A stretch of 64,000 bases of DNA from Terriglobia bacterium (lineage in GTDB: Bacteria; Acidobacteriota; Terriglobia; Terriglobales; Acidobacteriaceae): NCBI GenBank assembly GCA_021324365.1, contig JAJPJE010000029.1:1-64000 (forward strand), given 5' to 3'. Positions within the stretch are counted from its first letter, which is position 1. Each line of letters starts with the position of its first letter. The position numbers and the translations under genes are program-made. The notes beneath the pieces are model-generated. The model did not search any database and had not been told where the DNA came from. It was given only the letters and a program-made list of their open reading frames with translations. Shown piece by piece: positions 62,308 to 64,000 of this stretch.

Positions 62308-64000
62308 ATGTCAAAAGAATTGTTTGTTTCTTCTACCCCACACCAAACCAAGGTGGCGCTGGTAGAGAACGATACCCTCGCGGAAGTCTATTTCGAACGC
62401 GAGAACGAATACACCTTAGCCGGATCCATCTATAAAGGCCGTGTCACTCGCGTGCTGCCAGGCATGCAATCCGCATTTGTGGATATCGGACTTGAACGCG
62501 ACGCCTTCCTTTACGTATCCGATTTCTTCGAGTTGGAAGACGAAGAAGAAACCTTTGATCCGATTCCCGCGGGCGCTGCCAAGCCATTTCAGCTACAGCC
62601 TGAACCGCAGCCAGAGCCGGTGGTCCTGAGTTCTCCTGAAGAAGAAGGCAGAACAGAAGCGACCTCGGAGGAGAACGGTGCAAACGCTTCAGCCGATACT
62701 GGCGGAGAGGAAGGGCGTGACAACTATGAAAGTGGCCGCCGCTGGCGTGGAAGAAATCGCCGCCGCCGCGGACGCCGTGGATTCCCCGAGAACAAGTTTG
62801 CCCATCCCGAGCAGCAGAATGGCGAAAGTGTCTCGGAAGAAGCAGACGAAGAGACCGCCCCGGGCCACCATCCCATAGTGCTCCCCGGAGAGTCGATTGC
62901 AAAATTCAACCGCAGGGACAGCCAAGAGCCGGAGCAGAACGAACCACAGGCGCCTTCGCCAGAAACAGAGTCTTCCGCCGAAGAGCCGCAACCTGCAGGG
63001 CCGATGTCTGCGGTCCCGGTCCCCGAACCGCCGGTCCGCCGCGAAGAGCCTAAGGCATATGAGCCGATAATCCTGCCGGGCGAATCGATCTCGAAGTACA
63101 ACCGCAACCGCGGTGAGCAGACAGAAGAAGTGACGAAGCCGGAGCCAGTCCCAGAACCGCATCGAGAATCACGTGGACGAGATTCCTTTAAACGCGAAAC
63201 CTATCGGCCGTACGAGCCGATCATGCTTCCAGGTGAGTCGATTTCGAAGTATCGCAATCGCCAAGTCGCCGCAGCCCCAACTCCAGCCATCGCCGAGGAA
63301 AATACCGAGGCTGCCCAGTCGGTAGCTGCCGAAGCGCGTGTTGAAGCTGGCGAAGAGAACGGATCGATTGCCGCTCCTCCCGAACATATTGCCTCCACCG
63401 GAGCAGCGCCCTCCGAAGTAGCTCCGAAGCCTGAAGTACTGAACTGGTGGGCGGAGGCGGACACCAAGGAACCACAGCCAGAGAAGATCGAGTATGAAGA
63501 AGAACAGCATCTGGAATCGGCGTCAGGTGCCATAGAAGAGGGAGAGGCAGAACAGGCGCGGCCGGAACCGCAGGCTGAAGTTCGCGAAGCCGAGCATGCG
63601 CCAGAAATTCCCCGAAGCAGCCGTTTCGGACGGATGAAGGCTTTCATCTTCGGGGGAGAGGAGCCGAAGCACCACCCGTCAGCCTCGCAGTATGAGAGCG
63701 CTGTCGAAGCAGAGCATCAACGCGAAGCGTCCGAAAGCATAAGCACGAGCTTCGAAGGCGGGCACGAGTCCGAGGTCCGCGCCGAGTTCGAGGGTGGACA
63801 CCAGGCCGAATTCGCCGATGCACCGCCCCAGACGCAACATCCTGAGCCGGATTACCGCAACGCGCCGCTTGGAGCTTTTGAAGAAGAAGTGATCGAGGGC
63901 GATGAGGAAGAAGACATTCCGCATCCTTCCGAAGTGCTTTACGAGCCTGATGCCTATGAGGAGATGGAAGAAGAGACTCTCGAGCGCGGCGTAGCCGCAG
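62308..64000 (+). CDS. Ribonuclease E/G family, N-terminal part (truncated by window edge)
   Basis: The frame from ATG (GGAG six bases upstream) is open to the window end, 564 codons. Residues 1-75 are the start of the RNase E/G S1 domain (VALVENDTLAEVYFERENEY, IYKGRVTRVLPGMQSAFVDI, DAFLYVSDF). The S1 domain is then interrupted by a very long, acidic, Pro/Glu-rich insertion still unfinished at the edge. It includes an arginine-rich segment (RRWRGRNRRRRGRRG, about 142-156) and three copies of an LPGESI motif (189-203, 253-266, 304-317). The catalytic DNase I-like part lies beyond the window. It would process and degrade RNA, the insertion probably serving as a scaffold. Confidence 0.92.
   Translation, partial: MSKELFVSSTPHQTKVALVENDTLAEVYFERENEYTLAGSIYKGRVTRVLPGMQSAFVDIGLERDAFLYVSDFFELEDEEETFDPIPAGAAKPFQLQPEPQPEPVVLSSPEEEGRTEATSEENGANASADTGGEEGRDNYESGRRWRGRNRRRRGRRGFPENKFAHPEQQNGESVSEEADEETAPGHHPIVLPGESIAKFNRRDSQEPEQNEPQAPSPETESSAEEPQPAGPMSAVPVPEPPVRREEPKAYEPIILPGESISKYNRNRGEQTEEVTKPEPVPEPHRESRGRDSFKRETYRPYEPIMLPGESISKYRNRQVAAAPTPAIAEENTEAAQSVAAEARVEAGEENGSIAAPPEHIASTGAAPSEVAPKPEVLNWWAEADTKEPQPEKIEYEEEQHLESASGAIEEGEAEQARPEPQAEVREAEHAPEIPRSSRFGRMKAFIFGGEEPKHHPSASQYESAVEAEHQREASESISTSFEGGHESEVRAEFEGGHQAEFADAPPQTQHPEPDYRNAPLGAFEEEVIEGDEEEDIPHPSEVLYEPDAYEEMEEETLERGVAA

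Follow-up and report, generated by a model that had tools for sequence, protein, structure and literature searches.

A conserved LPGES peptide in the S1-embedded disordered insertion of Terriglobia RNase E/G, a probable docking motif of an RNA-decay assembly

Acidobacteriota are a dominant soil phylum. Most knowledge of the degradosome comes from Proteobacteria, and in E. coli RNase E the scaffold is C-terminal. Short peptides join PNPase to RNase E in E. coli, Salmonella and Pseudomonas (PMC12489471; PMC11964227). In the C-terminal domain (CTD) of P. aeruginosa RNase E, NDPR recruits PNPase and AR1 recruits RhlB, with a repeat number that varies between species (PMC11964227). The microdomains of gammaproteobacterial RNase E are gained in a clade-specific manner within a disordered scaffold, the enolase site maybe being a duplicated site (PMC4435900), and according to a secondary citation in the same source cyanobacteria have a PNPase-binding motif (cited in PMC4435900). 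Insertions in the S1 domain are also known: those of Caulobacter and plant RNase E measure about 50-150 residues and are partly helical (PMC4245959; PDB 4OXP), and Caulobacter RhlB is recruited via a C-terminal extension to an N-terminal fragment of RNase E in which the insert lies (PMC4245959). For the Fibrobacteres/Acidobacteria group, a review lists an RNase E/G of 511 aa and no predicted complex (PMC3071783); we found no description of an Acidobacteriota degradosome in the literature searched.

An RNase E/G with a split S1 domain and a repeated peptide

The window (the whole stretch of DNA analysed, 64,000 nucleotides) ends inside an rne/rng gene that lies downstream of PBP2-like and RodA-like genes. 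Its reading frame starts at 62308, stays open past the window end and stops at about contig position 65436, giving a full protein of 1042 aa. PF10150 matches residues 680-950 of this protein with 350 bits (cut-off 25.5), indicating that the RNase E/G catalytic domain is present, and TIGR00757 matches with 488 bits (cut-off 326). The best-scoring NCBIfam equivalog is RNase G, at 499 bits and under that model's cut-off of 594. The zinc-link CPxC motif can be read in the translation as CPYC within LGSPCPYCTANGYVKS. Residues 4-72 and 643-980 align to the catalytic domain of E. coli RNase E in phmmer, and the N-terminal S1 domain is present but split, both halves matching E. coli RNase E.

Aligned with RNase E of E. 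coli and of Caulobacter, the protein shows an insertion of ~573 residues after residue 74, with S1 resuming near 648. The sequence-only reading had described an acidic, disordered-looking insertion that interrupts S1 and takes the place of a C-terminal scaffold, and the analysis supports this description. Glutamate makes up 21% of the insertion, and in AF2 models of two orthologues from the pattern scan described below the insert has a pLDDT of ~30-40 and is predicted to be disordered. The C-terminal scaffold is absent: the protein ends with its catalytic part, and in all 31 homologues collected below the tail beyond the catalytic profile is 0-1 residues, while the insert ranges from 306 to 706 residues. 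The features of the locus are as follows, z being the conservation score defined in the next section.

62308..64000, + strand: rne/rng gene for RNase E/G, open ORF with PF10150 and TIGR00757 matches
62422..62526, + strand (residues 39-73): first half of the S1 domain, PF00575 sub-threshold at 12.8 bits, phmmer match to E. coli RNase E
62530..64000, + strand, end beyond the window (residues 75 to ~647): disordered acidic insertion in S1, from HMM boundaries, composition and AF2
62728..62781, + strand (residues 141-158): arginine-rich patch ESGRRWRGRNRRRRGRRG, median z 6.1, second most conserved part of the insert
62782..62799, + strand: FPENKF, a short motif of the form [FMIL]-P-[EDA]-[SND]-K-[FY], directly 3' of the arginine-rich patch
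62872..62913, + strand (residues 189-202): motif copy 1, PIVLPGESIAKFNR, from the translation
63064..63105, + strand (residues 253-266): motif copy 2, PIILPGESISKYNR, from the translation
63217..63258, + strand (residues 304-317): motif copy 3, PIMLPGESISKYRN, from the translation
63619..63657, + strand: SRFGRMKAFIFGG, possible amphipathic (membrane) helix, judged from sequence
63958..63984, + strand: acidic element EEMEEETLE, median z 3.1

Three copies of one peptide block had been reported in this insertion, and all are found at their places, apart from a span for copy 1 (residues 189-203) that was one residue too long and is correctly 189-202. The dipeptide YE, said to precede two of the copies, stands before copies 2 and 3, and copy 1 has HH. 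The strict motif occurs in 0 of 20,000 shuffles of the insert. As nucleotide sequences the copies are no more than 65-73% identical: each pair differs by 6-7 synonymous vs 3-5 non-synonymous codons, and the L, P and G of LPGE each appear in three different spellings. Thus, the copies share a peptide and not codons, and this synonymous divergence rules out a recent DNA duplication. Chance repetition is likewise ruled out, by the shuffles and by the expected counts in homologues. As for the claim that the surroundings are not conserved, it holds for five of six comparisons of 20-residue flanks, which lie within 1.7 SD of random insert pairs, and fails for the flank downstream of copies 1 and 2, which reaches +2.6 SD. 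Codon divergence, together with flanks that are mostly random-like, argues that selection acts on the peptide.

Conservation and range of the motif

We collected 31 full-length RNase E/G homologues from related genomes by PF10150 alone, blind to the motif, and drew the evidence for conservation from this set, leaving out alignments of loci picked by the motif pattern. LPGEx[LIMF]x[KR][YFH] is present in 31 of 31, with 42 copies vs 0.00 expected. Under a slightly wider pattern, which itself requires all four residues, L, P, G and E are identical in 43/43 copies; S is found in 39 of these, K in 39 (R in four) and Y in 39. Three orthologues have Arg or Lys in place of Ser (LPGERLAKY, LPGEKLAKY), and in copy 1 of the window's protein Tyr is replaced by Phe. 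Most proteins (24) carry one strict copy and six carry two; three are found only in the window's protein.

When each 9-mer of the insert was scanned against the other inserts, the motif reached a median z of 9.9, with 6.1 for the next best element and 0.14 for the whole insert, most of which is unalignable among homologues. By these comparisons no other element of the insert, which is disordered and changes fast, is as well conserved as the motif. An alignment of homologues had been proposed earlier as the check on the motif, with its absence, or equal variability of the rest of the insert, as the adverse outcome; instead, the motif forms a conserved island within fast-changing disorder, the pattern of a docking short linear motif. 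In the AF2 models of the two orthologues, the motif (residues 207-222 and 192-206) appears as a local ordered patch that is extended and then makes one helical turn, which suggests that it folds conditionally. Block means at the motif are 62-63 in models with pTM of 0.39 and 0.28 and a poorly modelled S1, and in the first model helices elsewhere in the insert (residues 395-453) also exceed 50.

Other parts of the insert are conserved to a lesser degree. The arginine-rich patch, as R[RG]{2}R[RG]{2}, recurs in 30/31 homologues and is probably an RNA-binding element; a second arginine-rich patch has a median z of 4.4. Motifs of the FPENKF type occur in 14/31 homologues (expected total 0.02). We observed that P-E-S-K-[FY] in this region (62728-62799) looks like a shortened P-G-E-S-x-x-K-Y and may share the LPGES pocket. 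The segment SRFGRMKAFIFGG, with a median z of 1.2 and z>3 in 14%, is found in part of the class only; relatives hold the similar FFGRMKAAVFGNE and FFSNVASFFRGE, so that the insert may contain an amphipathic membrane-anchor helix.

To map the range of the motif, a 27-base pattern coding for LPGE[ST]-like, [LIMF], x, K, Y was run on 297 genomes of the phylum. It matches 31/33 genomes of the motif's own class, Terriglobia, vs 0/264 of other classes, and a reversed control pattern has 0 matches in the 297. In named genomes, 118 of 123 matches among those listed fall in an RNase E/G frame; of the other five, one lies in a protein kinase, one in an unclassified frame of 617 residues and the rest in short frames. 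Nearly all contigs of the listed RNase E/G matches are labelled Terriglobia, Acidobacteriaceae, Bryobacterales, Acidobacteria and similar. In these genome sequences the motif is a trait of the class, borne by a single protein. A role as a general protein tag was rejected: in the window's own genome, LPGES[IL] occurs in a long frame only in rne/rng. Near C-termini of that genome, [LMI]PGE is found in two helicases and one aminotransferase-like protein.

Two RNase E/G loci with the motif (L115, L168) lie on contigs labelled Rhodanobacteraceae and Nevskia soli. These are probably misplaced Acidobacteriota contigs, since the L168 protein resembles proteins of Bryobacterales contigs at both ends. 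In one scan of viral contigs, three loci match, two of them only in short frames; the third, L253 (IMGVR_UViG_3300044824_000336), matches in an RNase E/G-like frame, and this contig may be host DNA or may hold a copy carried by a phage.

Helicase tails, a docking reading and its alternatives

The window's genome has genes for PNPase and DEAD-box helicases. Its PNPase lacks the motif, and its two RhlE-like helicases share the LPGE core at their ends (...RIVQLPGEMLQLQMV and ...LASRTLAAMPGEVFA). The loci concerned are:

C125:24641-25864, - strand: own-genome RhlE-like helicase with C-terminal [LM]PGE
C100:29824-31023, + strand: own-genome RhlE-like helicase with C-terminal [LM]PGE
L307-L316, L318, L321, L324, L395, L396: helicases with C-terminal [LM]PGE

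Within the motif's class, 15/20 distinct RhlE-like DEAD-box helicases have [LM]PGE in their last 20 residues, as do 1/491 background ORFs and 0/20 helicase homologues of the sister class. Fisher tests give P = 1e-23 for the class vs background and 8e-7 for the class vs its sister; these values ignore shared ancestry and overstate independence, since the tails are related by descent. The LPGE tail is found in two paralogue groups, LPGEVLQ... and LASRTLxxLPGEVFA, whose tails otherwise differ; in one group LPGE always begins seven residues from the end. The tails LPGEVLQRYV and LPGEVLQRHG fit the weaker RNase E copies (LPGESLSRYK, LPGESLSRHR) and the longer consensus, and helicases other than L311 and L312 have LPGE and a hydrophobic residue only, with no K-Y. 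In the phylum sample, LPGE[VIM]F[AV]-stop matches four genomes of the class, all in helicases, and six places outside it, none a helicase. Five helicases of the class lack the tail motif, among them all three from a second family of the order, whose RNase E keeps the motif; the helicase link thus does not extend to the whole class. The link to helicases is the most surprising part of the analysis and the least secure. A separate observation concerns the PNPase (L293, C23:7793-9832, - strand), which has an R-G-G-rich C-terminal tail (GGRGGDRGGRRHGG...) after its S1 domain.

We think it likely that [IVFL]-[IVL]-L-P-G-E-S-[LI]-[SA]-K-Y serves as a short linear motif for docking in a degradosome-like RNA-decay assembly of Terriglobia, protein binding being our reading of its conservation. 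The scaffold, C-terminal in E. coli, would here be the long disordered loop inside S1 of RNase E/G. In this loop RNA is probably held by the arginine-rich patches, and each LPGES motif, of which a protein has one to three, would fit a partner's pocket, with L-P-G-E extended and S-[LI]-x-K-Y forming one helical turn after it. The recurrence of the LPGE core at DEAD-box helicase C-termini argues for a shared receptor, and because RNase E/G and the helicase carry the same ligand peptide, a common receptor is simpler than direct contact between the two. We infer that nuclease and helicase share one receptor, probably oligomeric, that would gather both. PNPase is our first guess for it, by precedent and symmetry only, and a tentative one that would apply in a minority of the cases in which docking itself holds. 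PNPase is a trimer and would suit the role of a hub, and with such a receptor several motif copies per RNase E would add avidity.

The main rival to PNPase as receptor is the catalytic core of RNase E/G. The motifs would then bind within their own subunit or across subunits of the tetramer, in autoregulation or assembly, and the helicase tail would compete for or fill the same pocket and so bind RNase E directly. This has a precedent in Caulobacter, where the C-terminal extension of RhlB binds an RNase E N-terminal fragment with the S1 insert, and where a helix of the insert protrudes into the RNA site (PMC4245959); it also agrees with both motif carriers being RNA-decay proteins. AF2 of the two orthologues shows a weak peak at the motif and no confident fold with the core, but with S1 poorly modelled and no pairwise error this is weak evidence against core docking, which we regard as doubtful.

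The helicase LPGE could instead resemble the RNase E motif by coincidence and be a tail signal of a different kind, serving turnover or a different partner, for instance, which would leave the RNase E motif with a receptor of its own. Most helicase tails do share only LPGE-x-[LF], the fixed distance from the end in one paralogue group has no counterpart in the RNase E copies, which are not position-specific, and helicases of the second family in the class are without it. However, LPGE is kept in two paralogue groups with otherwise different tails, some tails fit the longer RNase E consensus, and the sister class lacks the tail just as it lacks the RNase E motif, with the background nearly free of it; we consider a separate signal unlikely.

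The motif might instead bind RNA or act as a sticker in condensates, in the manner of the REER repeats in P. aeruginosa RNase E, which bind RNA and help to sustain foci (PMC11964227). Its repetition, its disordered setting and the adjoining arginine-rich patches would suit this. Yet the motif is not arginine-rich and is fixed to single residues where stickers tolerate more change, 24/31 proteins have one strict copy, and it recurs as a helicase C-terminus, which makes this very improbable. A modification or cleavage site (Ser/Tyr phosphorylation, or proteolytic release of the insert) could account for the conservation of Ser and Tyr amid disorder, but both residues are replaced in some copies and the invariant part is Leu-Pro-Gly-Glu, and we give this reading the least credence of all.

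The sister class and known systems

The RNase E/G of the sister class, which we take to be Blastocatellia from the likeness of some members to Chloracidobacterium, also has long S1 inserts, of about 250 to 490 residues, without LPGE. These carry F-[EQ]-R-[VI]-x-[DE], in at most three copies each. The 32 proteins, some of them read in part and twelve without a match, have 38 matches in total vs 0.4 expected. The motif has no match in the 31 Terriglobia inserts and was not found in sister-class helicase tails. In many other lineages of the phylum the S1 insert is only 20-46 residues. Separately, sister-class helicases (L347-L363) often end in basic residues, for example VRSFxPRRAGR, which may be a motif in its own right.

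L256-L260, L267, L271, L277, L279, L280, L283, L284, L286-L292: sister-class loci with the F-[EQ]-R-[VI]-x-[DE] motif

It is conceivable, and we put it forward tentatively, that in Acidobacteriota the RNA-decay machine is put together through peptide codes that differ by class and sit in a scaffold within S1: LPGES(L/I)xKY, shared by Terriglobia RNase E/G and RhlE-like helicase C-termini, with one receptor gathering both, and F(E/Q)R(V/I)xD at the same place in the sister class. Within Terriglobia, the LPGE peptide is probably a plug that assembles the machine, as judged from patterns of conservation. Because nuclease and helicase have in common a motif whose invariant residues are clear, one peptide would be enough to test what such a complex is made of, and the swap to another repeated motif in the sister class is a natural experiment on how scaffold peptide and receptor change together.

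RNase E scaffolding by short peptides and S1 inserts are already known; what appears to be new is the class-wide S1-embedded scaffold with LPGES, its sharing with helicase tails and the motif swap. A text search of the literature for LPGESI gave no match, and we found no published description of an S1-embedded scaffold with a motif, of sharing with helicase tails or of a class swap, in a search that covered subscription journals thinly. For gammaproteobacterial RNase E, we found no report of a motif that is also in a helicase.

Like RNase G (cafA/rng), the window's enzyme ends right after the catalytic/thioredoxin-like part and has no CTD; it differs in its score below the equivalog cut-off and its long S1 insert. 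The gammaproteobacterial microdomains are C-terminal and unrelated in sequence to LPGES. P. aeruginosa RNase E resembles the system described here in having short motifs in a disordered region and a variable repeat number, whereas its motifs are C-terminal and of other sequences, and its repeated element (REER) binds RNA, not protein; compared by their descriptions, NDPR, AR1 and REER have no sequence in common with LPGES. In Caulobacter crescentus, as here, the S1 insertion is charged and predicted to be disordered. There, however, the insert is shorter and accompanied by a separate C-terminal scaffold, whereas the Terriglobia proteins have 306-706 residues within S1, lack a C-terminal scaffold and carry a repeated motif.
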